A stretch of DNA of 64,000 nt, from positions 8,010,406 to 8,074,405 of the forward strand of contig JARUPZ010000018.1 in the NCBI GenBank assembly GCA_031213475.1, given 5' to 3'. The stretch is from Nereocystis luetkeana. Its lineage: Eukaryota; Sar; Phaeophyceae; Laminariales; Laminariaceae. Shown piece after piece: positions 15,623 through 60,899 of this stretch; within the stretch, counting starts at the first letter, position 1; every line of letters starts with the position of its first letter. A program made the translations under genes and the position numbers. The notes under the pieces are model-generated. The model saw only the letters and a list, made by a program, of their open reading frames with translations. It made no database searches and was not told the origin of the DNA.

Positions 15623-15702
15623 GAGACCTGCGGAGGTCGTGCCGCAGCACAAGGGCAGGGCAGTTGCGCTCTACTCGGGCTTGATTATCGCCATCTTTGG
15701 AT
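15623..15702 (+). CDS. Gene A exon: juxtamembrane segment and TM1
   Basis: 80 nt between CGCAG and GTGAGC. It starts with one leftover base, then reads RPAEVVPQHKGRAVALYSG and LIIAIFG, ending in phase 1. Gene B has the same 80-nt exon with PAEVVPQHK conserved. The leftover T joins the next exon's AC to make Tyr. Confidence 0.8.
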
Positions 15703-21700: not shown

Positions 21701-24700
21701 TCGTATACTTCGCGTCCTTCAACCTACTGGCACTGCCCAAAGTTATTATCTGATTTGATTGTGAGTAAGTCGTTTTAAGGTACAGACGTTTACGACACCC
21801 CCTCAGCACGAGCATTGCCCACTGGTGCGACTGCTCCGTGCTATACCCATGGGGGTGCATTTCAGCGTCGATGCCAAGCTGGTTTTACGGTGGCTCACCG
21901 ATCCTCCGTCCCCCCTAGGTTCCCCGTCGCTATAACAATACACCATGTATATATGTGTAGTACCAACTGGCTGAAGGGCGTGTAGTACCAACAAATATCG
22001 CCTCCTTTCATCCCGCACGCAGAAACACTGGTAACATTGAAATGACCAAAATATAAGGGAGATTCAGTAGGTGCTCCGTTCCCGCGAATGGCGTTTCATG
22101 AGTAATCTTGCGCCCCCTATGTATGGTGTGAATGACCTGTAACAAGCTGCATGTGCTACAATAGGAACACGCTCAATGGGAAAAAACTACAGTTTGTGCC
22201 CAGGTAGTTGATAGGTCCCCGACTACGCCAGGCGTGGATACCCAAACTAAACCAACGCCTTACCGACCTTGTCATTTCACCCTTGCTGGCCTTTTCCCGG
22301 TGACGTTATTTTCGGGCAGACGGTGGTTACCTTGTGTACCACGCGGTGAAGGCGGCTGAAAACCCAAGCACGTCTTATGTGTTGTCGGTGAGCTTACACG
22401 CAGTAGAGAGCGCGACGCAGTTCGCACTGAACTATTACGGGGGACCATAGTTAATAGGACCAAATTTTGTTAGTAAAAATGGTTAAATATATAGGTTTTT
22501 ATGTATACCATATGTCCTGTTAACTATGGTCCCCCGTACTAGATGAAGGGGATGGGGGGTGAAACGTACCTGACATGTCTTTCGGCCTTTTCTGTCTGCA
22601 TCATGACTCTCGCAAGTTTCCGCGTGTGCCTAGTTATACTACAGTACTGTCTACGACGTATATATCATACCAGGTACGTATTAATTATGTTTATTCGTTC
22701 TGGTTTAAAGAAGCCGTCGTCAACTGTGAGTTTTCCGCACCAATCTGGAGGATCAGTCGTCCGGGTTGCACGTGTTTTGCAACAAGTACGCCGGGTATAC
22801 CACGGCGAAAACTTGCGCGCGGTGACCAACAAAATTCAATACCATCTAGGCAGAGAGATTTCCTGCATAAGCAACGGTGTGGTGTTCCTTGCGCAACTAA
22901 ATGTAGACAAAGCACCCTTCCTCCCCTGCCTTACTTCGTTTTGGTGTCCTTTGTGACGTCACAGAACAATGCGTACAAGTATCCAGACATCTACGTGTGC
23001 TTGTACGACTTTTACGGGTGTGATGGCGAGGAATTGGAGGAGGGCTGCATGCGCTCCGCACAAGGCACGGAGGGGGGAAGTTCTAGGGCCGTGTTCAATT
23101 ACGGCATGGACAACGCGCAAGAACTCAAAACTGACGCGTTCCTGACTGACGAGGTAATCCGGGCCTGTTCTTCTGTTCGAGCGGTTGGACAGCGCTGTCA
23201 TGCTCGTAGTGCGGTGGCCAATCGCAGGAATAGTGATCAGATACTTCCAGGCGGTGTGACACTGTCTTACTAGATACATGTCTTAAGACTAGCACCCGCA
23301 ACCCAATGGAAGCGCGCATGCCGAATGCCTCGGCAATATGGGGAATGCGTTATTGCCTCTGCTACAATATGCCTGAATCCGGGAGGTGCCCGTTTTTGGT
23401 CCCACGACAATGACTACCCTTGGCGCATGCCAATGCGCGGCCTCGTGTGTTCGTGTTGCTTCGGCTCTGGTTGCAGAGAGGCTGGTGCGTTACCTTCGCT
23501 ACTTCGGAGATAGTGTTTTTCGAGGGCAAGCGGGACCCCGAAGATTACATTGACCTAAACGTAAGGGAACTGACACGCATGAAGTCACGCAAACACCAGG
23601 TGTAGCCATTGAGCGGGACAATTCGCGCTTTTACGTCGGGTGCGACGTCGTTTAGCCGATATTGAGCCCCGTTTTAAGAAAGTAATGCACTGCCGGTAGC
23701 TATGTCCTATTCGAAGGCATGTATCGCCACCTCGGTGGCGCGTCGTTTGGTGACAATGCCATCGGCTTATTTATGGTGTCTGGGGTAATCCAGGTCTACC
23801 CATGGATGTATGGGAAGCATGTTGCTACTCGGACGGAAATAGGCTTCGGACTTAGAGACCTGGGGACACGACCGACTATGGCGCAGATATAATATATACA
23901 TTTTACCTGCGTGTGCTTCTGGGGGTCCACCCCTCTAGCCGTGTGTGTAGCGATGCTGGCCACTGGCTCCTGTTGAGTGCAGGGGTATAGTTGTAGGTAT
24001 TCGCTTCTTTACGCAAGCTTAAGGTAGGCAAATCACACGTTGTCCTTCTACGAGAGCGTTTACAACTTTCCTACACTAATTATCTGTTTATCGTGGCTAT
24101 GGTGCGTTGTGACTCTGTGGTCGGCTCGACGAAAGATGTTCTGGTACCCGGGTGGGGGCGCAAACCTTTCGACGACATGCATCGGCCAGGAGGGGGAGTG
24201 GGAATCTCACAGGTATACGTTTTCCGCGGTTCTCAGTCTGCAACACATACGAGCACCATCACATTTATGACCGTCGTTCACACTCTGTAGTAATACCACG
24301 ATGTATGTGTGTGTCAATCAAGGACATGGTAGGAATGGTTATAGGGTTCTGAGGGGCTTTTGTCTTCGTTTTTTCCCCCCATCTGTGGAGTCTTCTTCGA
24401 GACTACTACTCTTCACTGCACATGTGGCCTTTTGACACGTTAGCTGAACCATCTCGTGCCTTGCGTCGTGCCGCCGCCGTGACAGCGAGAGCGTATTCGT
24501 CTCCTTACGCGATGCAGATACCGGTATCTACTCGGCCGGTATTCAAGTGCCTTATTCCTGCAGAACGAGTGAGTCCGACAGTCACACCTTCAACTATATG
24601 GTGAGCACATCGGCACAATAACGCCTTGCTACTCCATATTTCTTGGTGTTTTCTATTACGGGGGACCATATTAAGTACCAGGGTAGGGCTTACGGTACAC

Positions 24701-27700
24701 ACAAAAACCTATATATTTCGCTATTTTTACCAACACTATTTGGTCCTATTTACTATGGCCCCCCGTAATAGACGTCGAGATGGTGGTGACGTGTCTATCA
24801 TGTCTGAGTTCGTTCGAGTTCGGAACCCCCCACCGAGAATCTCGGCAGCTCGACGTCTTTCACGGGGGGACTCGTCATATCGGGGTAATGCCTTGTGAGT
24901 GTTGTCTTCGACGTACGATGCGTGCATGTATACATGATGCTTGTTTCCTTCCCCAGAGCTACTGAGCCTAACCAGAGCTAACTGAAAGGCGGTCTTGGAG
25001 GTACTATTATCAACCATAACCCTTCGTACTTACCGCTGCGGCCATGGTTTATCCAGGGAGTCGGGCTAACGAAAGAGATTAAAATCAGGAGCGACAATAC
25101 GGCATCGTACAAGGCGGTGGCAACATCATCATTCCTTCAGAAGGACAAGGTGGGCACCTCTCTAGGTCACTTAATCGATACTCAATGCACAAGGGCTTTA
25201 ACCGAACCCTCTGTCTGTTGGGCACACCAAGCGAAGGGCTTCTTCAGACAATGTTTTGAAGATTGGTACGTACCACACCAGTAGTCGGTATTCATTTAGT
25301 CGCTTCTCGACATAAATTTTATATGGTACAAGAGTAAGTGCAGGAGGTGTTATGTTCTCTGTATTTTTACGAGTAGTCTCAGAGTAGACATACATGGCTT
25401 GATGCACGACAGACATCAGTTGATTGCGTCCTGCGCACTCGTAACCTCAAGCGCCCGAAGCCTCAGCTCCGTCAGCAGTTTTGAAGATACTAAGTACTTT
25501 CGACTGGACTGCAGGCTTGTGGATTGTTCAAGCATATAACCGTGAAACTTGAAAACCTATGATAAAGTGGTTGGAAGTTGGGGGGTCGCAGATACTATTC
25601 TTATACCAAAAATGAGGGTCATGCTTTGTTTAATTTTAGGGTATTACAAGGCGCTTCGCTCCGCGGGCTCGCTCAGTAAGGAAAAAAGTACACCAAATTA
25701 AGCGAAGCGAACAGAGGTCCACGATTGAATTTAGTTTTTTGAAGGATTGTAATTGCAAACCGGCGGCTTGATAATGCCAAGAGTCCCGCCGCCATGCTTC
25801 AGGAAAAAACAGCTCCGACGTCAGCTCGGACGCCACATAATACGCTTCGCGTCGCGGATGTCGTACGTACGTTCATACCCCAGGTAGGGTACTGCTGCTG
25901 TACTTATTTTCTTATTTTGATATGCTCTATGTCTGTACTCGTATGTACGAAGAAAGCAAAAGCACAGCACGGCACAGCAGCAAAAACAATGAAAATGAAA
26001 CCGAAAATCGGGAAAAAAATGAAATCCCCATCCCCTCTCGTGCAATAATGTTCTGCCTGATTGGAACACCTTACACCCGGTCGAAACAAAGAAAATAAAA
26101 AATCACACAGAAGAGCTTGCCTCGCAGCCTCGTACGCCGCCCACCCCTCTCGCGACCACCTCGCCACCCATTCGGTCCGGGAAAAGCTTTTATCACTCTC
26201 TGCCACAATCAGCCCCGTCGCCCTCCTCGCGTGAAGCTCGGTGCTCACCGTGGCCGTCGTTCGCCAGATCGATAACGTTGGTGTTCAAACTGCCCAGCTC
26301 CCTCTTTCAACTTCAGCGTGGTCGCAAAAATAAGCACCGCTTGAACATTATCTTGCCATCCTTAACGACCTTTATCACTCGTACATACTCTATCAAAAAT
26401 CACAAACGGAAGCCAGACAAAGCCCGTTCATGCATCCCTCGTGTCTCGAGGCACACGCGACGCCTAGGCACGAAAGCGGCGACCGCGCTCCTTGCAACCC
26501 CCCTTCTACCCGCCGGCATTCGCTGACACCCGCGACGGTGCCGGGTCCTCCCGCCGTGCCGTACTCGAAGTAAACGCACGCACACGAAACAAAAGACGAA
26601 GAAAGGAAGAAAGGACGTGTCAAGAGAAATGAAGAAAACCAAGAACTGCTGGAAAGGTCCGGCAAGTAATGAAAGGAGGCGGTTTGGAAGTGGGAGCTCT
26701 GAGAGGCCAGGGATGTGCCAACCGAGCACGCTCAGGGGTTGTGATTGAAGTATGTAGTTCTATAACTGATCTCGAACGCCCGGCATGAGCCTCTCTTTCG
26801 ACCACTCTGCTCTACTCCACTCTGCTTCTTTTCGCTTCTACTTTGTCTTGCGCGAATAATCTACACCCTGGGTCCGGGTCTCCAGCACATCATGGGATTT
26901 CTACGTCAATGATCATATGAGAGCCCGAAGCTTCCAGACTACACACCCACAGTGGTTCCACAGCGTCTGCCTTGAGGATATCAAGTCGATGCACCACTGC
27001 TCCATCAACTCTACGCGTGTACGCGTATACCCTGGCACACTGGCGATACATTCGTCATTTGGCGAGACCAACCGTGTTGTGCGTACATAAACATTTGACT
27101 CGGTCGACAATCATGTACGCTCTACAGAAACATTCTTGATGCAGCATGCCTCGGCGCAATGTTTCCGTCAATACGCAAGGATCGAGAGGAGAGTGGCATA
27201 CCACACTGCTCAACGACTAATAGCGGCTAGCTGGGCGATACGGCGCACGCCTATGCGTAGGACGAAACCTGTTCCAAACGAGTTGTACTATACTTACGTA
27301 TTGGCCTATTCCGAACGGTGGCAAGAAACAACAACGTGCCCTACTCAGCCCTTATCCAGACGCCTTGCTCGCGACCCTTTTCTCGGTAGAGAGACGTTCA
27401 CATCACAGGAATCGCGAGCCCCTACGCCTGGCTGTCCATGGAAATAGCCCAGGAAGAAAACTCGCTGGAGGAGATCACGGAGATTGACCCCCTCAATATC
27501 GCTGAGATGCTCGGAAACGTTGGCGGGTTTTGGGGTGAGTCGAGAGACAAGCGGAATCGAAGGTGCTCATAGCGGTGTGATTATGTTTCGTGTTGCTAGG
27601 TTTTGGCGCAACTGTTCCTTTTAGATTTCCAGTGTTGTTATCACTACAGCAACAGTCACATAACCTTTCTGTAGTGGATGCTTCAAGCAGCAACGGGTGA

Positions 27701-28377
27701 AGGGTATATAATGGGGAGTAACGAACGAGTCCGGCCTTCTTCTTCCACAACGATGATTTTACATAACGCGACAAACTCCAGATTAAATTGTTGTACTACA
27801 GAAGTCTATACTTGTAGGGTTGAATAAACACAGCAGTGCCGCTCACGGTGGCAAAGCTCTTTGATATCTTGCAGATCTCACGGAATTTGTACTGCCGCTG
27901 TCGTTCTTACACTTCCTCGCAGATCTGCTCCTCTTATTGTGGCCACTGTTCTTCGTTGCGGCAGCCCGCCAAGAGCCCCATCTTAAGGTTCGCAACCTCA
28001 GAAAATCGATAGCTAGAGGATCGGAACACGTGGTGGCCTTCTCGCAACCAATCTGCATTTCTGCTTCCTTGAGGCGCCACAATGAGCTGGCCAGACTGCC
28101 CGTGCAACCACCCACCGCGGACGCAGCCAACCAAACTTCTACGTGGGATACTACTGACGCATCGTCTCGTCAGCAGGTGTGTGTGGCTAGTTTGGCCGGG
28201 CCTCTTGTCTACTACAGGCCGCAAGGTCTTCACACTCATAGTTGGGAGGGCCACCTAAGCATTGGAAGTTTGGCTGTCTGTAGGATCGGTACCAGGGGTG
28301 ATCAAGGCTACAACACCCCTACCCAAACAGGGGAAGATAGAGGAACGATGGTTGTTAAAAGGGATGGAATGCTTTGA
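15623..28377 (+). CDS. Gene A: two-TM membrane protein of unrecognised family (5' end not found)
   Basis: Nine exons join in frame: 15623-15702, 22320-22387, 22965-23153, 23477-23560, 24136-24212, 24486-24600, 25057-25149, 27390-27534, 27923-28377 (about 435 codons). They were chosen because eight have same-length, same-phase homologues in gene B. Predicted order: short cytosolic segment, TM1 (AVALYSGLIIAIFG), ectodomain of about 200 residues with six cysteines conserved in B and an N-L-S sequon, acidic EITEIDPLNIAEM, a GN-V-GG-F-W motif, TM2 (LLLLLWPLFFVAAA), and a basic then Ser/Thr/Gln-rich tail. The protein probably sits in the plasma membrane or an endomembrane with both ends cytosolic. 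I do not recognise the family. Two TMs flanking a Cys-bearing ectodomain with glycines before TM2 recall DEG/ENaC or P2X channels, but this is only topology. At least one 5' exon ending in phase 2 is missing from the model. Introns carry MITEs, tandem repeats and the 1.1-kb repeat. Confidence 0.75.
18590..18725 (+). repeat. Degenerate 12-bp minisatellite (TTCCATGGTGCT type)
   Basis: Roughly ten imperfect units of GCTTCCATGGTG follow one another. A related, weaker run lies at about 17728-17800 (CCATGGTGCCCCGGTGG, TTCTATGGTGCTTCCGTGG). Both are inside gene A's long intron. Confidence 0.65.
19755..20125 (+). repeat. C-rich interspersed tandem units
   Basis: A segment of the type CATCACTRCAACACC, then C-tract, GGCCCGGCGCATGT and AACGTCGGT, occurs near 19972 and 20070 (period about 98 bp). 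Weaker copies lie near 19765 and 20280. The + strand is pyrimidine-rich, opposite in bias to 4.4-5.8 kb. Confidence 0.65.
20147..20275 (+). repeat. Dispersed repeat, inverted copy of 5806-5937
   Basis: See the copy at 5806-5937. The shared core includes GGTGCAAGCAAT.TCTACCTGGT, a GGCATTGTAG segment and CTATGGTC.TACGAC. Confidence 0.7.
20341..20700 (+). repeat. Three-copy tandem repeat, period about 118 bp
   Basis: Three units start near 20341, 20459 and 20576. Each carries CTTCC..CTCCG, a TCGCCGTCGG-like segment, TTGCAGC.CCCC, TGCCCTTGGAC.GTGGT and AGAAGAG.GGCGGTC. Units are about 75-80% alike. Frames through them on either strand are repeat shadows. Confidence 0.8.
21018..21567 (+). repeat. 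Tandem duplication with a short GCACTGGACTGTG subrepeat
   Basis: A unit of about 195 bp occurs at about 21138-21330 and 21374-21567. Both copies contain GCCTTTCTGACTGTGCCTTC, ATCTGCC and TTA.GGCGATGA.CTCAAA. Its leading motif GCACTGGACTGTGTCGA also occurs alone near 21078 and, diverged, near 21018. Confidence 0.75.
22320..22387 (+). CDS. Gene A exon: start of ectodomain
   Basis: 68 nt between GGGCAG and GTGAGC. Starts with two bases completing Tyr, then reads GGYLVYHAVKAAENPSTSY and VLS, ending in phase 0. Gene B's 68-nt exon has (I/V)Y.AV...ENP.TS conserved. Confidence 0.8.
22436..22538. mobile_element. Mariner-like MITE (CGGGGGACCATAG family)
   Basis: About 100 bp, bounded by TA dinucleotides and inverted repeats CGGGGGACCATAGTTAA / TTAACTATGGTCCCCCG. 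It has an AT-rich centre with the family motifs GGACCAAAT.TTG and TATAGGTTTTTATG. TA flanks plus this size fit a Tc1/mariner-derived MITE. It sits in an intron of gene A. Confidence 0.9.
22965..23153 (+). CDS. Gene A exon: cysteine-bearing ectodomain core
   Basis: 189 nt in phase 0 between GTCACAG and GTAATC. Reads NNAYKYPDIYVCLYDFYGCD and onward with three cysteines, all conserved in gene B. About 38 of 63 residues are identical to B by my count, including AYKYPD, YDFYGCD, RSAQ.TEGG and AVFN. Confidence 0.88.
23477..23560 (+). CDS. Gene A exon: ectodomain, RGWC segment
   Basis: 84 nt in phase 0 between TTGCAG and GTAAGG. Encodes RGWCVTFATSEIVFFEGK then RDPEDYIDLN. Gene B matches in RGWCV.FA.SEIV, RDPEDYI and LN. 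Confidence 0.85.
24136..24212 (+). CDS. Gene A exon: ectodomain, WYPGG segment
   Basis: 77 nt from CGAAAG to the GTATAC donor, starting in phase 0 and ending in phase 2. Encodes MFWYPGGGANLSTTCIGQEG then EWESH. It contains a sequon (N-L-S) and one conserved cysteine. The acceptor is the only shared AG giving equal length in both genes. Confidence 0.8.
24486..24600 (+). CDS. Gene A exon: ectodomain, SAGIQV segment
   Basis: 115 nt between CGTGACAG and GTGAGC. One base completes Ser, then it reads ESVFVSLRDADTGIYSAGIQ and on through YSCRTSESDSHTFNYM. SAGIQV.YSC.TS.S.SH.FNY is conserved in gene B. It is the sixth conserved cysteine position. Confidence 0.85.
24657..24767. mobile_element. Mariner-like MITE, intronic copy
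   Basis: TA-bounded CGGGGGACCATA ... TACTATGGCCCCCCG with the family's AT-rich core. It lies about 57 bp after the donor of the preceding gene A exon. Confidence 0.88.
25057..25149 (+). CDS. Gene A exon: ectodomain, GVGLTKE segment
   Basis: 93 nt in phase 0 between ATCCAG and GTGGGC. Encodes GVGLTKEIKIRSDNTASYKA then VATSSFLQKDK. Gene B has G.GLTKE, S.A.Y.AVATSS and KDK at the same positions. Confidence 0.85.
25648..26765 (+). repeat. 1.1-kb dispersed repeat, copy 2
   Basis: Colinear with 7513-8605. It lies inside the intron between the last two ectodomain-side exons of gene A, in the same orientation as the other copy. The GC palindrome of copy 1 is missing, replaced by GGCTCGCTCAG. No conserved coding frame. 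Confidence 0.75.
27390..27534 (+). CDS. Gene A exon: pre-TM2 segment with GGFW
   Basis: 145 nt between TCGGTAG and GTGAGT, starting in phase 0 and ending in phase 1. Reads RDVHITGIASPYAWLSMEIA through an acidic stretch to AEMLGNVGGFW. A nearer AG at 27408 would break phase with the upstream exon, while this acceptor keeps phase and equals the gene B exon length. IAQE.NS.EEITEI.PL.IAEM.GNVGGFW is shared with B. Confidence 0.87.
27923..28377 (+). CDS. Gene A terminal exon: TM2 and cytosolic tail
   Basis: Begins after CTTCCTCGCAG. The two leading bases complete Asp after GGFW, giving DLLLLLWPLFFVAAARQEP and then the basic LKVRNLRKS. The frame stays open for about 150 codons to a TGA at 28375. 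A possible internal donor (CAG|GTGTGT near 28173) means the tail could be shorter. No homologue of this exon was found downstream of gene B. Confidence 0.7.
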
Positions 28378-29132
28378 GTCACGTATTATCATCACGTTGT
28401 CACGTGCTCCGGCGCACAGGAAGCCTCATATCATACTTGAAAAGCTAGCTGTCATCTATTAATACCAACCAACCAAGGGACCTCACTAATACTATCGAGG
28501 TTTCGGGCTCAAACTAATATGACCTTCTCTGATTACCACTATACCAATAGTCCTACTGATGGTATATCCAACAACGAACACCAGTACTCCCATATCAAGA
28601 TCTGTTCCTCCTCAGACCCGCGGTCAGTGGCTTCAAACGTCAGACATGTACACCGTTCCACCCGTCCCACCTTCTCCTTCCTCGCGCTCAACGTACGCAG
28701 AACCCTCAACGTGGGCATGATTCTCGCTATCCTCGCGTCTCGGAGGACGTCTCATCCATACGAAACCCCAATCTCTCTCACCCTTCAAGGGTAGGGGCGG
28801 CGCGCCCGTCATAATTGGCCCCATCAAACTTCACGTCGGGGGTCATCACCAGAATCGCCACGACAATCGGGAGCCCGTAGTGAGCTGCAGGTCGCGAGGA
28901 CCGCTGCAAGCCTGAACCCCATGGCGTCACCAAGACCGTTGCCGGCAGCGCCGATGGCGAGCCTCAGCAGTAGCCAAGCAACCGGCGTTGTCACCGTGTG
29001 GGTAAAGCACGCTGAAATGTCTTCGGGCCGGTGCTGTATGGGAATGTTACGGAACATCCTGCCACATCACGCAGCTGTTCTCTCTTCTAGGAGCTTTAAC
29101 ATTGTATAATAGGAGAAGATGCAGGAAATGAA
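28378..29132. other. Downstream of gene A, no gene recognised
   Basis: Would include the 3' UTR of gene A, but no poly-A signal stands out. Frames here (up to 91 codons) lack support. Confidence 0.3.
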
Positions 29133-44978: not shown

Positions 44979-46363
44979 GTTGAGTCGTACTAAAATACAG
45001 CGGCGTAACAACGTTTGGGAGCAGGTTTCCAATGTTCCACTTGCACGCCGAGTGTTCCGACAACCTGCAGCACATCAGGTAATTAATGCTGTTTAATGCG
45101 TGACGCATCACGACCCACAAAGAGTATGTCGCCCATATAGATAGAAGTAACAGCGAAAGCTTGGCGTTATCCAAATAAATACCAAAACGACTGATTGATG
45201 TGGTTGCCAACTTTTGCAGTATATATATACACCCATACCTACCTGTAGGTGTAACAATTTATTGAAAAGGCGAGGCACGGGTCGGCTAGTCGGCCAGTTT
45301 CCCTACCCAACCACTATTAAAGTAGACACGATCAAACTGCTGTTGCTGTTGCTGATGCTGCTAGTGTAGTCCTGCATGCCTAAAACAGAGAAGGGGCTCG
45401 GCAACATTTTTCCAACCAGAAAAAAAGCAGTAGTGTCCGACCCCACCTCGAACGGCGTCACTCGCTCGCGAGCGCGTTTGTTTCCTGCACCTTTCTGCGC
45501 GGTCGCGAGCCCCTCTATTGCCACGCCGGCAGCCCCATTGTTCGCCGAAGGCCCCACGATCACGTCGTTCCTGGGCTTCGTAGCAAGGAGCAGGCAGCGG
45601 GCGCCCAGTGAACCGCCTTGGCGCCATGTGGTGAGTGGGGGCGAGAGAAGCGAGGGCCAGACGGCGAATGAATGAACTGTCCTGAACAAAATTACGTGGC
45701 CTGTCGTCCAGTGGTATGTACGACGAAAGTCCTATTTTAGTTTAATAGAAGCCAATCGCGGCCGCATCAAACAGAGAGAACAACTACGGTATACACGAGC
45801 AGACTACGTATTCCTCTGAAGGAAGCATGGTCGTACATTTATTTTCCTGTTGTGTGGCGTTCTAAGGTCGTTCTCCTTAACTTCCGGTGGCGTACTGTTA
45901 TTTATTGCTGTGCTCCTTGTACTTTTATTTTTGTTTGGTTGTTTTCGGCCTGCGCGCTTGCTTTCCAGCCCATCGTTTTTAAGAGTTTGTTTTTTTCACC
46001 TTCAGCGGCCTTCTGGGATATATTTACTGGAATGCAGTATTTGCCGCGGTGGGTACGGGTGTCGCCCCTTCTCCCCCGCGGTGCTTGCCCTCGTGCTTTT
46101 TATCACGCACGCACATGACATGAATGGTTCAGCATTCCCATTTATTTGCTCCATCCGATCCCCATCGAAAGTTTTATGTTGCCAGAACTCGCGCTATCGC
46201 ACAGCCGGCAGCGGCGATAGAAATTTCACAGGTAAAAAAAGCCTTGTTGTGCGAAATACTGCGTTGCTTTTAGCACCAGCCGAGATCCGAAACACGGAGC
46301 AACCACCGACAGGGTGATGGTCTATCCTTCATAATATAACACCACACCGCGCCGCGTTATTAT
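44979..46363. other. Upstream region of gene B with one candidate first exon
   Basis: An open frame from an ATG at 45376 runs 87 codons to a CATGTG|GTGAGT donor near 45636. It could be a first exon, but its phase (0) does not fit the next recognised exon directly and its peptide is not clearly shared with the region upstream of gene A. Two other frames (45850-46317) lack support. Confidence 0.3.
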
Positions 46364-46466
46364 TACGGGGGGCCCTAGTTAGCAGGACCTATGGTGTACA
46401 TAAAAGCCTATATATTTCACCATTTTTTCTAACAATATTTGGTCATGTTAACTATGCTCCCCCGTA
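46364..46466. mobile_element. Mariner-like MITE
   Basis: TA-bounded CGGGGGGCCCTAGTTAGCA ... TTAACTATGCTCCCCCG, family core present. Separated from the next copy by only about 8 bp. Confidence 0.88.
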
Positions 46467-46473
46467 TTAGTAT

Positions 46474-46576
46474 TACGGGGTACCATAGTTAATAGGACCA
46501 AATATTGTGAGTACAAACGGTTAAATATATACGTTTTTATGTGTACCACAGGTCCTATTAACTATGGCCCCCCGTA
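46474..46576. mobile_element. Mariner-like MITE, adjacent copy in opposite core orientation
   Basis: TA-bounded CGGGGTACCATAGTTAATA ... TTAACTATGGCCCCCCG. Judged by the positions of GGACCAAATATT and TATGTGTACCA, its core runs opposite to the neighbouring copy, so the pair forms a large inverted repeat. Confidence 0.85.
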
Positions 46577-46807
46577 ATAGTAGTAGCAGCATATATATAT
46601 ATATTTGTTACTGAAACGCATAACTATTTCCGTCGTTGACGTGTCGTACTTCGTACCACAGTATATCCAACATATACATGCGTAGTCTGGAATGTTTTCG
46701 TTCAGCCTTTCGGTGTGAACCTCCTCTGTTGTGCAGCAGTGTGGATGCGTAGGAAGGAGTAGGTTCACAGACTGCGCTTATTATGTCCGCCGCGATCGAT
46801 CTCACAG

Positions 46808-46887
46808 GAAACCAGCGGAGGTGGTTCCACAGCACAAGCGCCGGGCAGTCGTGCTCTTCTCGGTCCTCATTCTCGCAATTTTCGGAT
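46808..46887 (+). CDS. Gene B exon: juxtamembrane segment and TM1
   Basis: 80 nt between CTCACAG and GTGAGT. Reads KPAEVVPQHKRRAVVLFSV then LILAIFG. Same phases as the gene A exon. Confidence 0.8.
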
Positions 46888-50091: not shown

Positions 50092-50126
<35 letters not shown>

Positions 50127-53100
50127 GTTAACAGGACCAAATATTGGTAGTAAAAAAGGTTAATATGTAGATTTTTATGTATACCATAGGTCCTATCAAC
50201 TATGGTCCCCCGTAAATTTTAATAGATAGTGCGTGGTTGTTTTCAACCATCCTAGGCCTGGCGATTCAAGGGTTTCTCCGTTTTTTCTCGTTTTCCAAAG
50301 CTTCGATGAGGAGCCACACATGTTATAAAATTGGCATTATACCTTCGCTCTCTTCGTTTCCTCCTCTAACGACGTCCTTCATACGATACCAGGCATGCCC
50401 CATGATCCAACGGCCAACGAGCGCCATACCCGTCCGCGATGTATCCCTTCGCAGACACCCTCTCTCTATGCGCTTCCCAAACGCAGAGAGACCCCCGTAT
50501 ACAAGCTAGTTAGTGGCACTCTGTGCGAAGTTGTAAGGATCACAGTAACTAGGACCTAATATTGTTGGTAAAATAGGTAAATATGTAGGTTGTGTCTGTA
50601 CCGTAGGCCCTATATATATACTATGGTCCCCCATAATATTAATACTACTCTGTCTCAATAATGCCTAAAAACGGCAGTTTTCCGGACGTATTGGCACATC
50701 AGCACTACTAACTTACTTGAATTTCAGCGGGGATCCAAGGAGGGCAATTAACCCCTTCCAAAATCAATACTACTACTACTACAAAGCAAAACGCGGATGG
50801 AGGATCAACGAGAACGCCCGACTGGCGGCCTTAAGGGTCGAAAATGTATCTACCCCGTACCAGGGACATACTTCACCTCCTCTGAGATTTGGCTCCCCGC
50901 AAAACCCGTACTTCGCACGAACGATCGAAATATCCCTCGCAGCTAGCTAGCAAATAATATGAGTTTCGACAAAATCCTCACAGCTGCTTGCTGTCGTTTT
51001 TTTTTTAAAGGTGTTTATGTATCATAGCTATGCACACCATGGTCCAGCAGGGCGACCGAGGGCGGGAGTGATACGACGTATATTCTTAAAAAGAAAAAAA
51101 CAGCTGTGATAATAATATCGAGGATTCCGTCGAAACTCCTTTCTGCAAGCTGTGGGCGATACTTCGATCGCTCGTACTACTACGGGTTTAAATGGGCCCA
51201 TTCCATGCAGGAAACACCGTGCGTGCATGTATGAGAGAAACACTCTGAAGAATCAAAATATTCGCGTGTTATAATTATTGGTTGCTGTAAATATATATGT
51301 GGGTCGGCTCTATCTAGCACTGAATCCCCTCTCTCACCCTGCGTGAAAGAATGTATACCAGAGTCACCTCAGCGGGCATACCTCCGCCCTGTTGAAAGCG
51401 ACACGGCACCCTGTCAGTGTTCGAAGAATGAATGCTAAGACGAACAATGTACGTGTACTGTTGTCGTACTCACCCCACAGTAGTACCAGGTTGTAGTTCC
51501 GGTTTGCGCGCAGTTTGTAGATAGATACAGACTGCAGTAAGTAGTACGAGCAGTATTTTCTCCGACTATTAGCAGCAGCAGCAACAGGAGTGTGCTGGTG
51601 TACACCTTGCGAAGTACGGTAGCCGTATACCGCACCAGTATTGTTTCGCGACCGCTAATTAATGGTAGTGTATTAGTGTCATCATGTAGTATAATAATTG
51701 TGTTTGTCATCCGACCATATGCAGGCAGCACGAGCGTCAGCGAAACACATAATAAAGAGGGGGGTCCCATCCATGTAATACTATGTATGTATGCACAAAG
51801 TCTATTTCCGTTCGGTCCTTGCTTTTCTTTCTTCTTGCATACATTCTCCTTTACCTTCTACCAGGTGCTCCGTAATATCATTGGTATCATTTTGTCGAGC
51901 ATTCTGGTCTGCTTTTTTTGACAACACATTTTTTGTTTTAAATCATTGGATTCTGATTGCCGTTGGATATCTGTGGATGGTATCCTTATTAGCCTAATTA
52001 ATGAGCGCCTTCACATCGTCGGACGGCAAATAAATGGAATAACAGTATGACCTCAGCATAGATAGGTTTCCTTTATGTCCGTCGTTTTCTTCTTTCAGGA
52101 ATTTTTTCAGTGATCGACGTTGTAACTCAGGCTGCACATTGTCGGATGGCAAACACAATAATGGTAACAATAATAATAATAATAAGAAGAAGAAGAAGAA
52201 TAATAATAATAATGATAATAATAATAACAATAATAATAATAGTAGTAATAATAATAATGATAATAATACTAAGGTTCATTCTTATCGGACAGTGTTTTTT
52301 CCATAATTAATTTGTAATAAGGATAATAACAATAAATACCTGGTATAATATATTGTTTCCCTGGTTAAGACCACCGGCCCCTTTTCCTTTTCTCCTGGTC
52401 TTCGTTCCGGCCCCCGCCCGCCCCCCCCCTTCACCCTTCCTGCCTCCTTTCCGGTCGGCGGTGTTGCTTTGTCCTTGGGCAGATGCCGCCAACCTCATCT
52501 ACCAGGCTGTGGAGTCGTATGAGAACCCGAACACCTCGTTCGCGTTATCGGTAAGTTTATCGCATATATATACATTCACACCTGGTATGAAGTACAGTAG
52601 TACGAGGGATAACAGGCAAATTGCGATGCGCTCGTCTTGCGCTGCGCACGGGAATGGGTAGAAAGTTTTTTTTCCGCCACTTTTTGCCGTGGCATCACAT
52701 ATATATATGTGCACAGCAAAAACGAAAGGAATAATAATTGAATGGTGTGCGCGTGTTCGTGTGGAAATGCGCCCTCGCACCACTACTATAATATTATTAT
52801 AGTTGTGTTGTCTGGTGAGTGGGTGGCCTCTTTCGAGGCATTCCACGATAATAAGGCAAACCGATATACCTACCGAATCATACTACGTACATGACTTTTC
52901 TGGGCACACGATATTCTCTCCTTACAAAGGACCTTGTCCCTTATAGGGGGCGTCACGCTTGCTGAAAACGACTCCAGGACCCGTACGTGAAAGGGGTCAA
53001 TTACTCCTGTCCCCTGCCTGAGAAACCCCACATAAATAAATTGCGAGAAAAGCGAGGAATTGTGTGCTCCCGAACCCACACCCTCGTGACGTCATTTCGT

Positions 53101-56100
53101 CCCCCGTTCGGCATGCCGTGGGGTCGACCCTTCATAAGGGATGCTTGTGGTCCCTACCCAGAACGGTCAGGCACACTGTGTAGCCTACAATTAATTGAGC
53201 CAAATACGATCAGATACGTTGGTATACGGGGGGGCCTCCAATACAGAAAACAACATGATCCCTTAAAGTGGGCTATCTGTTGTATGTAGCACCTACCTAT
53301 GGGTGCTCAAACGTGATGAATCAAGTTGTTGTGCGTTTTCTGAACGTACGTCTAGACGACACTCTTTCGATACAAACGCGATTAAACTATTAATGCATAC
53401 CAGTACCGGTATTATACCCTGGTATACATATACACCTGGTATATATTAATGCATACCAGTATTAATGCATATCAGTACCGGTATACCCTGGTATATATAT
53501 ATAATATACCTGGTATATATTATGGCGAGAACGACACCTGTGCTTCAATCCTCGTCTACTACTGTATTCACATTGTGCTGCGGAGTCACGCTCGGGCGTG
53601 GCTACTGCCTACAGAGAAAACTGCTCGTGTAGCTTGCTCCTTCCCAACATACCAGGTACAGCATTTGGGGGAGGACGAAGCAGGAGGAGCATGGTCGTTG
53701 CTCGCATTTATTTGTCAATGATATGAACCCACTGCGTGTACGTACCAATACTATTATAGGCCACATCCCTACGTTGCAAATTGATGGTGTGTTAACGCGC
53801 TTCGCGGGAAAAAATAAACTCCCTTTATTTGCTAGGTAGATGCCGCGAAAGCACCACCAACCTAAGCGGGGGACGCAGACCATTCATTGAAGGAACGTAA
53901 CCATATAACGGTATATTGGGGGGGTTTCATACCGTTTTACGGTATACCGAGGAAATCGGTCACAACGACCCCCTTGCATCGGCGAAGCTCCTGGCCAAAA
54001 CAACCCTATACCAGCATACTTCGAAGGGTGACCCAAACCGCCAGGGCATTATTCGCCTTGATGGGACTGCACCACACATACATGGCCCACGATTTCAATG
54101 TCCCAGCAGGTGGGGAGACGTTTTTGCGCGCTGTGATCACACGGGATTTCTGCCCTACAAAGCAAGCGCATCATCGGTGTGTCTCTGCCTGCTCGTCTGC
54201 TTCTTCTCCTGTCCTCCCCTTCATCTCTTGTGTGCCTTTCTGTATGGCTTGCCCCAGAATGATGCGTACAAGTACCCAGACGTGTATGTGTGCACGTACG
54301 ACTTTTACGGGTGTGACGACGAGGGATTGCTGGAGAACTGCACGCGCTCCGCACAAAGCACAGAGGGGGGAAACACCACGGCAGTTTTCAATCCGTTCGG
54401 GGACGATAGGCAAGAGCTCGAAGTCGGCGTGCTCCATACGGGCCAGGTGATTCCCGCCCGCTCATTCTCTGTTCTCGTACCCGGCAGACAGCGGTTACTG
54501 AAGTGGCGACCGGCGAACTAACTAGCGATTTGTCAACCCTTCCCGAACCAGTTTCACCGATACATAGAATACAAGCGCTTATTAACCCCTTTAAAACCGC
54601 AGTCCCGTTTTGGGGACAAACTATTTGAAATTTGACTGGTTTGTCCCCAAAACGGGGCTGCGGTTCATAAAAGGGTTAATCCAACTCTACCGCAAGTACT
54701 GCAGTGTATCACCAGAAATGCGGGCGCCGTGCAAAACGGGTTAGGCAACGCTTCGCAGACGGCGAGCCGTACTGATCGATTCTGAATGTCTTTAAGATGG
54801 ATGGAGCACACAACGCTATCCCCGAAACCCGACGGCCTTTTTGTCCACAAGTCGTCCCCGTATCCCCCGTATCCTCGGTGTGCAACCACCTATCTATGTG
54901 CGTAGGTATGGTGTATATGAACGCGTTCTCACGTATCGCGCCACGTCTGCCCGACTCTGGTTGCAGAGAGGCTGGTGCGTTTCCTTTGCTGCTTCGGAGA
55001 TAGTTATTTCCGACGGCGAGCGAGATCCGGAAGACTACATTCTACTGAATGTGAGAAGCCGAAACACTATAAAAAAAACACTCGTAGCCCATCGACAGAG
55101 CTGGTTTGTAATAACCTAAACCTCGCGATTGTCTAAACCCACGAGCGAGCGAGGCGCCAAACACTCTTTCTTTCGGCAGGCCCGGCATTAAGTACATTTC
55201 AGACAGATGGCCACCACCGTTCTAGGAAGGGGATTCGTTTTGTCTAGCGGGCATGGTATGATATGTGAATTTGATGCGAGCCGAGAAAGCCAGAAAGGGC
55301 TGAAGTCTTCTATCATAGCGATAAAAACCCAAGGCACTAACACCGGTAGTGGGGAGGACGGAGGAGAGCCTGCTGTGCGCCCCCGGATTTGAGCTACGAC
55401 CGTTGATACGGGGGACCATAGTAAATAGGACCAAACGTTGTTAGTAAAAAATTATAAATGTATAGGTTTTTGTGCGCGCCGTTGGTCCTATTTACTATGG
55501 TCCCCCGTAATAGCAGTAGGAAAAAGATACAAAGACGGGCGAAAATAACATATGGGTCGGAAAAAACAAGAGCGACAAAAAAAACAAATGTGCGGCGCGG
55601 GTGCCCTTTCGGTGACGCTCATAAGTTTGTGTCGTCGGGCATCAGCGAGCTACAATGCCTATCATTGCCCCAAATACCCCATACCCCGTCTACCAAAACG
55701 TTTCCCATTGTAGTGCTACGAGCCAAACCGTTTTTCCTCCATTGCGGCTCTACACTGTCCCGAAAGATGTACTGGTACCCGGGCGGGAGCGCGAACGCTT
55801 CGGACACGTGCATCGACGAGGAGGGCGAGTGGGAATCTCACAGGTGAACTACATTGCGCACAACGCTGTAAGTGGATAGATAGCACATTCTTGGACGAGC
55901 CGTAGCTACAATTGCGCGCGTGGTTCTCGATTTCCTGTAGCCTATCCGCGTTGAACCTAGACAGGAGCATGGCACATACGTATACTTGGTAGCGTTTGAG
56001 TGTCTTCTTTTCAAAACTACTTCGTCGTAATATGCGTATGTTATTGCGCTCACTTTCGTGTGTATGGGACAACTCACTCTACAACTGTTACGGGGGACGT

Positions 56101-59100
56101 TAGAAGGATTACCCCGGGCTGGGTAATCGATCGGCCTTTACGCCTATAGCTCAGCGGGTAACACGTTCACGTTTGGCGTCGTTGGCAGGGTGCTCCGTGG
56201 GTAACACTCTCACAGGGGCCATAGTAAATAGGACCTACGGTACACCCAAAAACCTTTACATTTCCCTATTTTTACACACCACCCCCCGTAACAACTGTTA
56301 CTGAAATAGGTACATGCCTGACGGGTTGGCCTGGCGCCATCGGTCTGTAGAACCTTCTTCGGAAAGTTATGTCAGCCGTACGATTTTCTGCGAGCATCGC
56401 ACATTAGCCGACCGTCTCGTCCCCGCCGGCCTCGAACGCAGTCCTTGCAAGCAAGGCACCGAGCCTAGGTCAGCACCCCCACGCCGGGCACGAGCAAGCA
56501 CGAGGTCCTATGACGAGTACGGGCAGACGTGAGGTAGTCGCTGGTTTGTCGATTCAAGCCAGGAAGTTGTGCCTTCTTTTCTGCCGCCCCACCCCCCCTA
56601 TTGTTTCTTTCGAAGGGGGGGGGGGGGGGGGGGGGGGCACGAGTAGCTGGTGTTACGAAGGGGATTTGTTTTTCCCCTTCCGTTCTGGTTTTACTTGAGT
56701 TTGCTCGGAGGAGTCGAATGGTACCGTACCATTCGGAGGCTTGTTTATCCAAGACAACTGTAGGCCGTACTAGTTTTGGAACCCGGCCGGTATCATAGTA
56801 GGGAGAGAGACGTAAAATAGAGTGGTCGACATACTCAGGGTACTGCAGGAAGCTACGATAGAGGTATCTGGCCGAGGGGAGGAACCTCTCTCTCCCACGA
56901 CTCAGGAAACGATAGTGATAATGCAATTCGAAAGATATACAATAAACTGTTACTGTAATAGGTACATGCCTGACGGGTTGGCCTGGCGCCATCGGTCTGT
57001 AGAACCTTCTTCGGAAAGTTACGCCAGCCGTAAGGTTTTTACGAGCATCTTCCATTAGCCGGCCGTCTCGTCCCCGCCGTCCTACCGCCACCGCCACTAT
57101 CGCAGCGAGAGCATATTTATTCACTTCCGCGACGTGGACAGCAACATCCCGTCAGCTGGTATCCAAGTGGGCTACTCCTGCGTGACGAGTGCGTCCAACA
57201 GCCACGTCTTCAACTACGTGGTGAGCACACCACATACCATATATATATGTCCCCTGGCAAGTTCTTGGTGTCTGTGGAGTTATATGCTGGCGGTAGTATG
57301 TCGTCATCATGAACCTTTTGGTCCGTACGGGCCCCGAGGCATTCAACGGCTCGTGAGAGCCGTAGCTCGGCTCCATAAACAACGCGCTTGGTTTTTACCT
57401 CAGTACTTATATGCCATACAGCAGAGCACGCAAGAGACCACACTCACCGGGACGAATTTTCTAGGGCTTTTCGCAGGTCAGGTCAAACCTCACGGGTCGG
57501 GTCGGATCGGGTCGGGTCAGCTGACCCGGCCCGACCCGCGAAAAATTTGAGGTATGTTGACTTGACCCGACCCGACCCGCGAGATTTTGAAAGCGTTTTG
57601 ACCAGACCCGACTCGACCCGTGAGATTTGAAAATCTCTTGACCCGACCCGACCCGACCTGCCACCTTCTGATTGACCCGTGAGACACGGTTTCATGCGGG
57701 TCGGACCACCTTGACCCGCGAGACTATTTATCTTGACCCGAAGGTTCGACTCGCGGGTCTGGCCCGTGGGTCGGCGCTTCAAAAACAATTTAATGTTCCT
57801 TTTAGTGCCCCGAAGCGATATATGACCTGGCTGTAGTGGGTATGAATGGATGCGGGCATGCGTATATAAACTAGGCGGTGTTTTAATGTCGGATTATGAT
57901 ACCAAAGGAGTATTACTGAGTATAGGTGCTAGAGAAGCCTTGGGTAAGAGAGCGGGAAGTGATAAAAAAGGGATCCGCGAGTCTAATGCGCGGGTCCGAC
58001 CCGCGGGTGAGCAAAAAACAACTCGCGGGTCATGCTGGCCCGACCTGCGAGTGACCCGCTTCTCGTGGGTCATGACCTGACCCGACCCGTGCGTTTTTCA
58101 CCACCTCTTGACCCGACCCGACCCGACCCGTGATATTTGAAAAGCTCTTGACCCGACCTGACCCGACCCGCGAGATGTGAAAAAATTCTGACCCGGCCCG
58201 ACCCGACCCATGAAATTTTGAACACTTCCTGGCCCGACCCGACCCGACCCGTGATATTTTGAACATCAAGTGACCCGACCCGCGGGTCGGGTCATGACCC
58301 GCGAAAAGCCCTGAATTTTTCGATCCTGATTCTCCTAAACAAGGGGTACACTGCGGACGGAAATGTTGGCTTTCTTTGGGGTTGTCTCGTCGAGACCATT
58401 TCATAGGCGCATCGCTCGGTGTTTGCACTCTCTGGTGATGTCGATAAACCACCGTGAATTTTTTTACGAGGGGGCGTCCTCTCTTCTTGCGTGTTATGTG
58501 GTGGTGCTTATTGCATACCTGGTACTACTGCTGTACAGCAGTAGATACTGTAGTTTTTCTGTTTTTATCCCAAAGATAGAAACAACTGCATGATTTCGAT
58601 GGTCACCCTCCCTACGAGCTGCCACGGGCTACTATCCCAAACCTTTGAAACAAAACCTCCGAATGAAGTGGCCTCCAAGAAATTCAGCAAGATTGGACCC
58701 GAAATAGTGATAGTTCGACAACGAATTTCAATCAGTAGTAGGGAAAGAGAGATTGTCAGGCTCGACAATATATATATATATTCTCTGTTATTCTTCAGTG
58801 GTCACGGCTGATGTTCTGAGTAAAATCGGGACATCGGCGTCCGGCCGAAAACCCAGTAGTAGGTACAAATGCAAAAAAATGCTTTACTTGCTACCTCGCA
58901 CCCGTTCTTCTGCATTAGTTTGAGTTTCTAAGCCTGCGTCGTCGGTTTTTGTCCATACAAACACTCGCAATACTTTCTTGGCGCAATTCCATTGTGTTGA
59001 CAATCGACGCAGTTGCCCCGTGAATACGTTACTTCATACGACGCTCCTCTGTATAGCCGCTGTTGTTGTCTCCAATGCAAAATAAGCGGGTCAAGCCGAC

Positions 59101-60899
59101 TAAAACCTTCTGTAGAACGGAGCGCTACACACCGAACCACAAAGCTGCGGACTGCTCACCAATCTGTCTCGGACCTTCCCAGCAGAACATATCAGTACGT
59201 GCAGTAGAATGAAAATGAATCAATATGTAGTTTAGTGTGGGAGTGGGAGTTTAAGTTTGGACAAAATGAGCAACACAGTGCTTGCTGTGCATATGCGCCC
59301 AGAATTAATTGTACCGGACGGCAGAAACTCGAGGCCGCTACGTTTTTTGTTGTCATACGGGTACTTGGAGGACATGGCTTCCTTTCAATTCGCCCTGGTT
59401 CCATTTTGCAGAGAAGCTGGGGAATGGACTGGCGAATAAGTGAGAGGATTCGAGTTGGCCCACCCTCTAAACAAGCCATGCTTGCGCCATCCATTTCGAC
59501 CGAACGATGTTAAACGCGTGTGGTGAATTCAGGGGATCGGGCTAACGAAGGAAAATCACATCAGCAGCGCGAGCAAGGCAACGTACCAAGCTGTAGCAAC
59601 ATCGTCCGCCACGTACAAAGACAAGGTGAGCCCATCTTCGATATCGCTTGGTCGCTATTAATAGTCATGAATACTACTACGAGTACTGTAGCTATTTCCG
59701 GTGCGCGTGGTCAAACCACGGTGAAATCGGACATGGGTCGCTGTGTGTAAAACCTATTTTTTTCTGGACGTTATTATCGGAGGGCTCTTCTTCCAGAATT
59801 TCGAAACTTACTAAAATTTGTAAATCTGTATCAAGATATATATGGCGGTGTGCTGTCCCCATATGTGAAATTTAACAGACCGCAAATATCAGGGAAGTCA
59901 GAAAGAAACAAATGGAAAAACGACTTCGGAAAATCTGGACGATGAAAAATGCGCGAAAAGAAGCCTTGGAAATATTTTTTTTCAAGAAACTGAAGAAAAA
60001 ACTGTTTTCCGATAAAACATGTCCCGACAAACTAATAATTGTTGTCCGGGAGTAGAACGATTAATCACTAGTATACTGACGTTGTATCGTAGATTTATTG
60101 TGAATGCGTCATACGAGGCCCTGGGTAATGGCAAGGAGAATATACGTACCTCACCCAAAAACAATGGATGATATCAAATGAGACTTGGCCCGACGATGAC
60201 AAATCCCTCCCGTGGCGTACATTTGGAAAACCTCGAATAAGCATGATAAAACATTGCTAAGGACAAGGCACGTGCTTTGTACTCTAAGGATAAGGCACGT
60301 GCCTTGGTGGGCACCTGTACTTCCTCAGGCGAGGAGCTCCGTCATTCGGTACTTATATGTGGGGAAAATGTGCTCCCTGTGTCTTCGCGCACTTTTTTTC
60401 TATCGCAATCTCCGTGCTTTCGCTCACTATAGGTATTAATAGTTTTAGCATGTCAAACCCGACGCTATCGTTCGGCCAACACACGGTAATGATCTCGAGA
60501 GAGTTTGTGGTCGTGATCTCGATCGGTCGACTGGTGATCTCTCGTGAGGCGAAGGCTTTGAATTAAAGGGAGGGCTCTTCGAAGCACGTGTTTTCACCCG
60601 CTCCAATTGCCCCTGCTATACATGCGTATATCGGTATATATATCAAGAGTGCACCACAGCAGTGGCCCAATATCGACGCTGGCAAGGAAGAAACGCGCGT
60701 GCTCTGCCCGCGCAGTAACCAGAGGCCTCGCTCGTGACCCTCCGCTCTCCTCAGCGAAACGACAATGCCGCAGACATCGTGAGCCCCTACGCGTGGCTGT
60801 CTATGGAGATAGCCCAGGAAACAAACTCACATGAGGAGATCACGGAGATCAACCCCCTTGAGATTGCCGAGATGTTCGGAAACGTCGGCGGCTTCTGGG
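46808..60899 (+). CDS. Gene B: paralogue of gene A (both ends incomplete)
   Basis: Eight exons join in frame: 46808-46887, 52483-52550, 54258-54446, 54967-55050, 55767-55843, 57106-57220, 59533-59625, 60755-60899. All equal the gene A exons in length and phase. The frame has no stop over 851 nt. The six ectodomain cysteines are conserved, and sequons N-C-T, N-T-T and N-A-S support an extracellular location. The pre-TM2 AEMFGNVGGFW motif is present, but no exon encoding TM2 and the tail could be found between 60900 and 64000. It may lie beyond the window, be lost, or be replaced. Introns carry a nested SINE/MITE, a hAT-like element, a piggyBac-like MITE and microsatellites. Function not known; probably the same role as gene A. 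Confidence 0.75.
49753..50215. mobile_element. Mariner-like MITE interrupted by SINE 1
   Basis: The left end TACGGGGGACCATAG (49753-49767) and the remainder TAGTTAACAGGACCAAATAT ... TATGGTCCCCCGTA (50125-50215) make one MITE once the SINE is removed. This gives a clear order of insertion: MITE first, SINE later. Confidence 0.9.
49768..50123 (+). mobile_element. tRNA-derived SINE family 1, copy 2, with poly-A tail
   Basis: A box GGTTCAAGTGGTTAACC, T arm CTGGG-TTCGAGC-CCCAG, the same body as 42796-43141, and a run of about 33 A (50092-50124). ATAG occurs on both sides (49764-49767 and 50124-50127) as a short target duplication. The pure tail and high identity suggest a fairly recent insertion. 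Confidence 0.92.
50533..50635. mobile_element. Mariner-like MITE, left end decayed
   Basis: AGTAACTAGGACCTAATATTG ... CTATGGTCCCCCATA retains the core and right end. The left CGGGGG block is lost. Confidence 0.75.
52169..52269 (+). repeat. (AAT)n/(AAG)n microsatellite
   Basis: About 100 bp of AAT units with an internal AAG block and single-base variants, 215 bp upstream of a gene B exon. Confidence 0.9.
52483..52550 (+). CDS. Gene B exon: start of ectodomain
   Basis: 68 nt between GGGCAG and GTAAGT. AT completes Tyr with the T of the previous exon, then AANLIYQAVESYENPNTSFA and LS. Confidence 0.8.
53395..53520. repeat. Palindromic AT-rich repeat of TACCAGTA/TACCTGGTA motifs
   Basis: AATGCATACCAGTACCGGTA occurs twice in related form, interleaved with CCTGGTATA palindromes. 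The strand could form nested cruciforms. No gene. Confidence 0.75.
54258..54446 (+). CDS. Gene B exon: cysteine-bearing ectodomain core
   Basis: 189 nt in phase 0 between CCCCAG and GTGATT. Reads NDAYKYPDVYVCTYDFYGCD and onward. About 60% identical to gene A. Two sequons, N-C-T and N-T-T. Confidence 0.88.
54582..54679. mobile_element. piggyBac-like foldback MITE, copy 2
   Basis: TTAA-CCC ... GGG-TTAA with arms AACCGCAGTCCCGTTTTGGG and CCCCAAAACGGGGCTGCGGTT. Intronic in gene B. Confidence 0.87.
54967..55050 (+). CDS. Gene B exon: ectodomain, RGWC segment
   Basis: 84 nt between TTGCAG and GTGAGA. RGWCVSFAASEIVISDGE then RDPEDYILLN. About 15 bp upstream of the acceptor are also identical to gene A. 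Confidence 0.85.
55225..55398 (+). mobile_element. Diverged fragment of SINE family 1 body
   Basis: GATGCGAG, GGGCTGAA.TCTTCT, GCGATAAAAA, GGCAC, GAGAGCCTGCT and GGATTTGAGCTACGA correspond in order to the SINE body. The tRNA-like head and the A tail are missing. It abuts a mariner-like MITE. Confidence 0.65.
55407..55509. mobile_element. Mariner-like MITE
   Basis: TA-bounded CGGGGGACCATAGTAAATAG ... TATTTACTATGGTCCCCCG, intronic in gene B. Confidence 0.9.
55767..55843 (+). CDS. Gene B exon: ectodomain, WYPGG segment
   Basis: 77 nt from CGAAAG to the GTGAAC donor. MYWYPGGSANASDTCIDEEG then EWESH. Sequon N-A-S and the conserved Cys. Confidence 0.82.
56089..56290. mobile_element. Mariner-like MITE interrupted by SINE family 2
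   Basis: Left end TACGGGGGAC (56089-56098), then about 115 bp of the tRNA-like SINE 2 (CCCCGGGCTGGGTAATCGAT, then TATAGCTCAGCGGGTAAC), then the rest of the MITE (GGCCATAGTAAATAGGACC ... CCCCCCGTA). A second nested pair in the same gene. Confidence 0.75.
56298..57080. repeat. Repeat block flanked by 130-bp direct repeats
   Basis: AATAGGTACATGCCTGACGG and the following roughly 110 bp occur at 56298-56430 and again at 56949-57080. Between them lies the inverse of 10480-11000, including a run of 23 G (56615-56637). The arrangement resembles a small terminal-direct-repeat element or a local duplication. The right repeat ends about 25 bp before a gene B exon. Confidence 0.75.
57106..57220 (+). CDS. 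Gene B exon: ectodomain, SAGIQV segment
   Basis: 115 nt between ATCGCAG and GTGAGC. ESIFIHFRDVDSNIPSAGIQ, then VGYSC and SHVFNYV, matching gene A. Confidence 0.87.
57462..58313. mobile_element. hAT-like non-autonomous element with GACCC-type subterminal arrays
   Basis: Ends TAGGGCTTTTCGCAGGTC and GACCCGCGAAAAGCCCTG form an inverted repeat of the CAGGG type typical of hAT elements. The flanks GAATTTTC and AATTTTTC are compatible with a diverged 8-bp target duplication. About 300 bp at each end is an array of TTGACCCGACCCGACCCG units spaced by GAGATTTTGAAAA. A 200-bp unrelated centre has no transposase. It is intronic in gene B. Confidence 0.82.
58314..59532. other. Intron of gene B, remainder
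   Basis: No repeat matched. Two overlapping frames (59235-59513 and 59257-59439) have no counterpart in gene A's short intron at this position and are treated as chance. Confidence 0.35.
59533..59625 (+). CDS. Gene B exon: ectodomain, GIGLTKE segment
   Basis: 93 nt in phase 0 between ATTCAG and GTGAGC. GIGLTKENHISSASKATYQA then VATSSATYKDK, matching gene A in length and phase. Confidence 0.86.
59626..60754. other. Intron of gene B
   Basis: Only short frames. A duplicated AAGGCACGTGCCTTG-like segment occurs at about 60266-60306 (AAGGCACGTGC twice). Nothing else recognised. Confidence 0.4.
60755..60899 (+). CDS. Gene B exon: pre-TM2 segment with GGFW
   Basis: 145 nt between CTCCTCAG and GTGAGT. 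RNDNAADIVSPYAWLSMEIA through EEITEINPLEIAEMFGNV to GGFW. Ends in phase 1, so a further exon is required. Confidence 0.87.

Follow-up and report, generated by a model that had tools for sequence, protein, structure and literature searches.

Two-span, six-cysteine membrane proteins in the brown alga Nereocystis luetkeana and their possible relation to DEG/ENaC channels

A stretch of 64,000 nucleotides (nt) from Nereocystis luetkeana (contig JARUPZ010000018.1, here C18, positions 8,010,406 to 8,074,405 of the forward strand; hereafter the window) carries two homologous multi-exon genes, A and B, and raises the question of what kind of membrane protein they encode and whether it belongs to a known family. 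The sequence-only reading of the window had described a tandem pair of unplaced proteins with two transmembrane (TM) spans and six cysteines. We found that A and B belong to a larger family, and we regard it as an evenly balanced judgement that this family consists of two-TM proteins under purifying selection forming a distant and reduced branch of the DEG/ENaC fold. Judged from the sequences, the family appears DEG/ENaC-like, a relation that is supported and unproven.

Translation and comparison of the two loci showed eight exon pairs with equal lengths (80, 68, 189, 84, 77, 115, 93, and 145 nt) and compatible phases, as had been claimed. An upstream AG and a downstream GT flanked all 16 exons, joined exons 1–8 gave an open frame of 283 residues in both genes, and 190 of the 283 residues (67%) were identical without a single gap. 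The differences between A and B numbered 60 and 54 at the first and second codon positions and were highest, at 100, at the third. The starts of exon 1 (15623 and 46808) lie 31,185 bases apart. Eight exons proved to be an undercount, as exon 9 with TM2 and exon 10 with the tail are also shared, and at least one further exon must precede exon 1 because exon 1 has an acceptor and lacks a start codon. The first coding exon was not found by comparison of the upstream stretches of the copies. The exons are as follows.

15623..15702, + strand: gene A exon 1 (80 nt), cytosolic stub followed by the first part of TM1, AG/GT borders, homologous to gene B exon 1
22320..22387, + strand: gene A exon 2 (68 nt), remainder of TM1
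22965..23153, + strand: gene A exon 3 (189 nt), YPDIYVC motif and three conserved cysteines
23477..23560, + strand: gene A exon 4 (84 nt), GWC motif
24136..24212, + strand: gene A exon 5 (77 nt), WYPGG and a conserved cysteine
24486..24600, + strand: gene A exon 6 (115 nt), sixth conserved cysteine
25057..25149, + strand: gene A exon 7 (93 nt), pairs with gene B exon 7
27390..27534, + strand: gene A exon 8 (145 nt), GNVGGFW ahead of TM2
27923..28176, + strand: gene A exon 9 (254 nt), TM2 DLLLLLWPLFFVAAA and a basic cytosolic stretch, same exon in genes B, C, D, and E
28701..28814, + strand: gene A exon 10, terminal, stop codon TAA, acceptor place matching in A, B, D, and E
46808..46887, + strand: gene B exon 1 (80 nt), pairs with gene A exon 1
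52483..52550, + strand: gene B exon 2 (68 nt), pairs with gene A exon 2
54258..54446, + strand: gene B exon 3 (189 nt), pairs with gene A exon 3
54967..55050, + strand: gene B exon 4 (84 nt), pairs with gene A exon 4
55767..55843, + strand: gene B exon 5 (77 nt), pairs with gene A exon 5
57106..57220, + strand: gene B exon 6 (115 nt), pairs with gene A exon 6
59533..59625, + strand: gene B exon 7 (93 nt), pairs with gene A exon 7
60755..60899, + strand: gene B exon 8 (145 nt), pairs with gene A exon 8
C18:8076813-8077048, + strand: gene B exon 9 (TM2), 2.4 kb past the window end
C18 from about 8077478, + strand: gene B exon 10, outside the window

Exon 9 was present in all five copies of the gene on C18 (A to E) and ended at a CAG/GT donor in A, B, D, and E, with lengths of 254, 236, 254, and 188 nt, respectively. 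In gene A, a second in-frame acceptor lies just upstream of 27923, the position at which similarity to the relatives begins. The terminal exon 10 encodes a basic, Pro- and Ser-rich tail that is weakly conserved in gene A. Exon 10 of B (C18:8077478-8077768), D (8136991-8137278), and E (8167314-8167607) ends in TV, TV, and IV, respectively, possibly a PDZ-type C-terminus; A ends differently.

The gene A model comprised 405 residues without its first exon and contained only two hydropathy peaks above 1.6, at residues 13–32 and 279–298, with basic flanks. From these peaks and flanks we infer membrane location and an orientation with both termini in the cytosol. Each member showed the same layout, consisting of a short N-terminus, TM1, an ectodomain of ~225 residues, a glycine turn of the form G[NS][VI]GGFW, TM2, and a basic tail. 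The six ectodomain cysteines were kept in all nine members spanning exons 3–6 (member K, read without exon 3, falls outside this count), and D has one more near TM1. The hydropathy peaks and the member alignment therefore bore out the proposed two TMs, six cysteines, and order of TM1, ectodomain, GNVGGFW, and TM2.

The introns had been said to be fully diverged and to hold different repeats. Comparison of gene A with gene B by blastn gave 10 alignments, six on exons (3 to 8) and four on shared short repeats, so that the introns have diverged and yet hold a common repeat family. A short dispersed repeat occurred in both orientations within the introns of A and B and next to them, at 22432-22543, 24682-24779, 46362-46581, 50124-50214, 55398-55520, and 61244-61356; by its look, the repeat is MITE-like (miniature inverted-repeat transposable element).

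Genes A and B are real paralogues. Reading them only as a pair was rejected, since C18 carries five same-strand copies within C18:7,996,639-8,166,802 (170 kb), namely C, which lies upstream of the window, then A, B, D, and E, and more occur elsewhere. The array survey covered C18:7,900,600-8,193,799, and five copies is a minimum. All eight exon lengths were exact in A, B, and E, and exon 3 was longer in D (198 nt) and shorter in C (183 nt). The ratio of nonsynonymous to synonymous substitution rates (dN/dS) was 0.23–0.29 (NG86) and 0.21–0.30 (YN00) in all six pairs of A, B, D, and E over 316 residues, below the value near 1 between A and B that the sequence-only reading had named as refuting its proposal; copy C was excluded because it is decayed. 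These ratios suggest that genes A and B are kept by purifying selection. The alternative that the copies are duplicates in decay, without present function, draws on copy C (C18:7996639-8005006), in which exon 8 is interrupted by a stop and the frame of exon 9 is shifted, the other exons being well kept, and on a degraded exon 9 fragment near C18:8,172,403 that may represent a sixth copy. However, A, B, D, and E keep their reading frames open, their splice sites in place, and dN/dS low, and we consider general decay quite improbable.

The 465-Mb genome assembly was searched with protein A and with one member from contig C28. Six genes (F–K) were read on C28, five of them between 1.40 and 1.79 Mb and J at 0.72 Mb; one further place at 1,516-1,525 kb, outside these six, contains internal stops. 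Exon borders on C28 were picked by a script allowing only phase-keeping AG/GT borders, and phase was therefore assumed rather than observed in the following lengths: exons 5 and 6 were 77 and 115 nt in all six genes, exon 3 was 189 nt in F–I and 210 nt in J (not read in K), and exons 4, 7, and 8 were 84–96, 90–93, and 127–145 nt, respectively. Ten members, with C left out, constituted alignment A2. Weaker relatives occurred on C30 (three places), C8, C16, C35, and C6, the last with ten places spanning 10.11–10.60 Mb, several of them with weak E-values reaching 0.8. Exon 8 was read for six relatives (C30, two; C6, three; C8, one), and exon 9 in five of the relatives on C30, C6, and C8, where the intron border follows the first base of the codon after GGFW, as on C18 and C28. 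Alignment A3 holds 12 sequences, of which ten (C18 and C28) carry WP in TM2 and two (C30) carry WG; the three C6 sequences also have WG. Pattern scans confirmed no relatives in viral contigs or in bacterial or archaeal genomes.

Gene A exon 3 was also matched, at a score equal to that on C18, on 14 small contigs (C496, C613, C829, C857, C979, C1120, C1141, C1195, C1343, C1461, C1527, C1780, C1883, and C1949), and contig C734 carries gene C exons together with an exon 1 of the A type, spaced almost as on C18. Since four small contigs likewise repeat the C16 place, the 14 copies of gene A more likely reflect assembly redundancy than real amplification.

Next, we focused on the relation to known channels. 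DEG/ENaC proteins, trimeric cation channels blocked by amiloride, typically carry an N-terminal HG motif, a post-TM1 motif FPxxTxC, which is present in the ASIC1 and ENaC chains compared here, and the selectivity filter GxS in TM2. In Pfam, ASC (PF00858) was the best match of B (E 3.3e-4, 20.2 bits) and E (E 0.0025, 17.4 bits), in each case covering TM1 and the first ectodomain strand after it, which correspond to the beginning of the ASC profile. Among the ten members scanned, two matched ASC (best E 1.5e-4); the family consensus matched it in two stretches (0.0011), and none of four controls with TM1 kept and the rest shuffled did so. The YPDxxVC motif of the family sits at the place matching FPxxTxC, and the N-terminal block, in which YPDIYVC aligned to FPAVTLC, reached a score equalled by 11 of 200 shuffles.

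A second stretch of similarity lies at the other end of the ectodomain. Alignment by hhalign of ten exon 8–9 sequences with ASIC1, ENaC beta, and ENaC gamma together scored 24.1 (E 0.00096), which none of 200 column shuffles reached, and covered strand beta12 and the pre-TM2 glycine turn. Neither of the single-chain scores with ASIC1 (gapless) and ENaC beta (a 3-residue gap after GG) was reached by any of 150 shuffles, and the GG turn was in register with all three chains. In the control with a reversed target, 37 of 150 shuffles reached the score. Smith–Waterman comparison of exons 8–9 of A, B, E, and H was matched by 1, 0, 1, and 18 of 1000 shuffles, respectively, for ASIC1, by 6, 178, 267, and 214 for ENaC beta, and by 153, 571, 405, and 711 for ENaC gamma. 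Given that several similarity tests were made and that the shuffles preserve composition only, we treat the relation to DEG/ENaC as likely and unproven. The proposed check by profile hidden Markov models returned ASC matches below the cut-off and none to P2X.

Several results weigh against this relation. The ASC matches fell under the Pfam gathering score (20.2 and 17.4 against 23.6 bits) and were confined to two of ten members, four of which carry complete exons 1–2, with none in A. SBDS_C, a meaningless match, reached 3.4e-4 in one member, so that single-sequence ASC matches alone prove little; the consensus piece of exons 1–3 matched ASC at 0.025, level with Anth_synt_I_N at 0.028. In Pfam, ASC was matched neither by the consensus exon 8–9 piece nor by the consensus ectodomain piece, nor by any of the 12 A3 members, and a PF00858 search of the genome returned nothing at E 0.001. 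Hhalign probabilities were 22% for the three chains jointly and 34%, 5%, and 1% for ASIC1, beta, and gamma; gamma aligned over 12 columns only, with 12 of 150 shuffles reaching the score (not significant), and 7 of 150 did so for beta and gamma combined. Full-length hhalign against the three chains gave no support, and profile searches of the PDB returned no DEG/ENaC chain up to E 10. The GxS filter was absent from all 12 A3 sequences, which have WP or WG instead, and the members have six conserved cysteines and lack the thumb and finger cysteine array of the ASIC1 chain. Separately, matches to Saf pilin, SBDS_C, BurrH, tryptophan hydroxylase, and the like were judged to be due to chance or composition.

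The absence of filter and thumb array would also be expected if the proteins were lineage-specific two-span receptors or wall or surface sensors unrelated to DEG/ENaC, in which the ectodomain with its six cysteines would serve to bind a ligand or wall polymer, TM2 would act only as the anchor of a non-conducting receptor, and the glycine turn would be convergent. No member scored above a curated cut-off in either Pfam or NCBIfam (in NCBIfam, none of ten up to E 1), no PDB chain was convincing, and the family is expanded in tandem, as is common among surface-recognition repertoires. Two separate stretches nevertheless align with DEG/ENaC, correctly ordered and placed in the topology and with some backing from the shuffles, and we regard the receptor reading as a strong rival whose probability falls somewhat short of even.

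The sequence-only reading had guessed at a ligand-gated channel-like or receptor protein, naming DEG/ENaC and P2X. The former has gained partial support, from sequence at either end of the ectodomain, and P2X was left unsupported. P2X receptors are trimeric, and the broad topology of two TM spans around an ectodomain is alike. However, no scan gave a P2X match in Pfam at E up to 10, and 84 of 100 shuffles scored as high as a P2X4 segment against exons 8–9, so that similarity did not exceed that of shuffled sequences and P2X identity was rejected. According to PMC11085791, P2X was not found in the diatoms and other stramenopiles surveyed. A P2X-type ATP-gated channel, the other trimeric two-span fold, is accordingly the least probable of the explanations considered, and hardly to be expected.

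Compared with ASIC1 and ENaC, the family appears to share two TM spans flanking one ectodomain, an aromatic-Pro-x-x-x-x-Cys stretch after TM1, and an alignable block from beta12 to pre-TM2 with the GG turn in register. In contrast, its ectodomain of ~225 residues is shorter than that of the ASIC1 chain, it has six cysteines without a thumb array, TM2 carries WP or WG rather than GxS, and its matches remain under the Pfam cut-off. If the family is a DEG/ENaC branch, the palm and wrist parts (post-TM1 strand, beta12, and pre-TM2 turn) would be retained and the thumb and finger insertions missing, and the pore lining of TM2 would be remodelled at the GxS place. As GxS is lost, ENaC-type sodium selectivity would not be expected. 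By analogy with DEG/ENaC, the proteins could assemble as trimers, and an extracellular cue might act through the ectodomain and glycine turn on TM2 to gate a conductance or to pass on a conformational signal; trimer, pore, gating, and expression are all inferred. More tentatively, and with a probability nearer to one third than to one half, the genes may form a DEG/ENaC-derived superfamily that expanded in the alga independently of animals to tens of genes, partly in tandem, stripped of thumb and fingers and with a WP/WG pore lining, serving as a channel or receptor repertoire.

Within the window as a whole, no tRNA or Rfam matches were found. The region 2001-6000 has a guanine-cytosine (GC) content of 58–69%, one strand being strongly enriched in G (GC skew about 0.4), and overlapping Arg/Gly-rich open reading frames; it has the look of an extended imperfect repeat. 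At 13304-14071 and about 61718-61810, trinucleotides are repeated at length and translate as poly-Val or poly-Thr. In translation, the stretch 7508-8600 was 66–92% identical (reaching 90% across 108 residues) to one near C18:8140152-8141263, upstream of gene E, and is likely a dispersed element.

DEG/ENaC channels were long regarded as animal-only. A 2023 study describes DEG/ENaC homologues in the heterokont Cafeteria roenbergensis and the filasterean-related Tunicaraptor; the channels of Cafeteria fall with those of cnidarians, next to clade B and near animal channels, and the choice between loss and lateral transfer for non-animal DEG/ENaC is left open (PMC10507113). By description, these Cafeteria homologues count among the closest known counterparts of the family. 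Among the literature matches listed for DEG/ENaC with stramenopiles or brown algae, no such family appeared in titles or abstract starts, which is weak evidence given an unsearchable slash term and the mostly uncovered subscription papers; PMC7935092 and PMC10739892 were false word matches only.

If true, the presence in an alga of a large, divergent DEG/ENaC family kept by purifying selection would be relevant to the choice between loss and lateral transfer, and would show how far the DEG/ENaC fold can be trimmed. If the proteins are not DEG/ENaC, they would still constitute an expanded membrane-protein family without a curated name in Pfam and NCBIfam.

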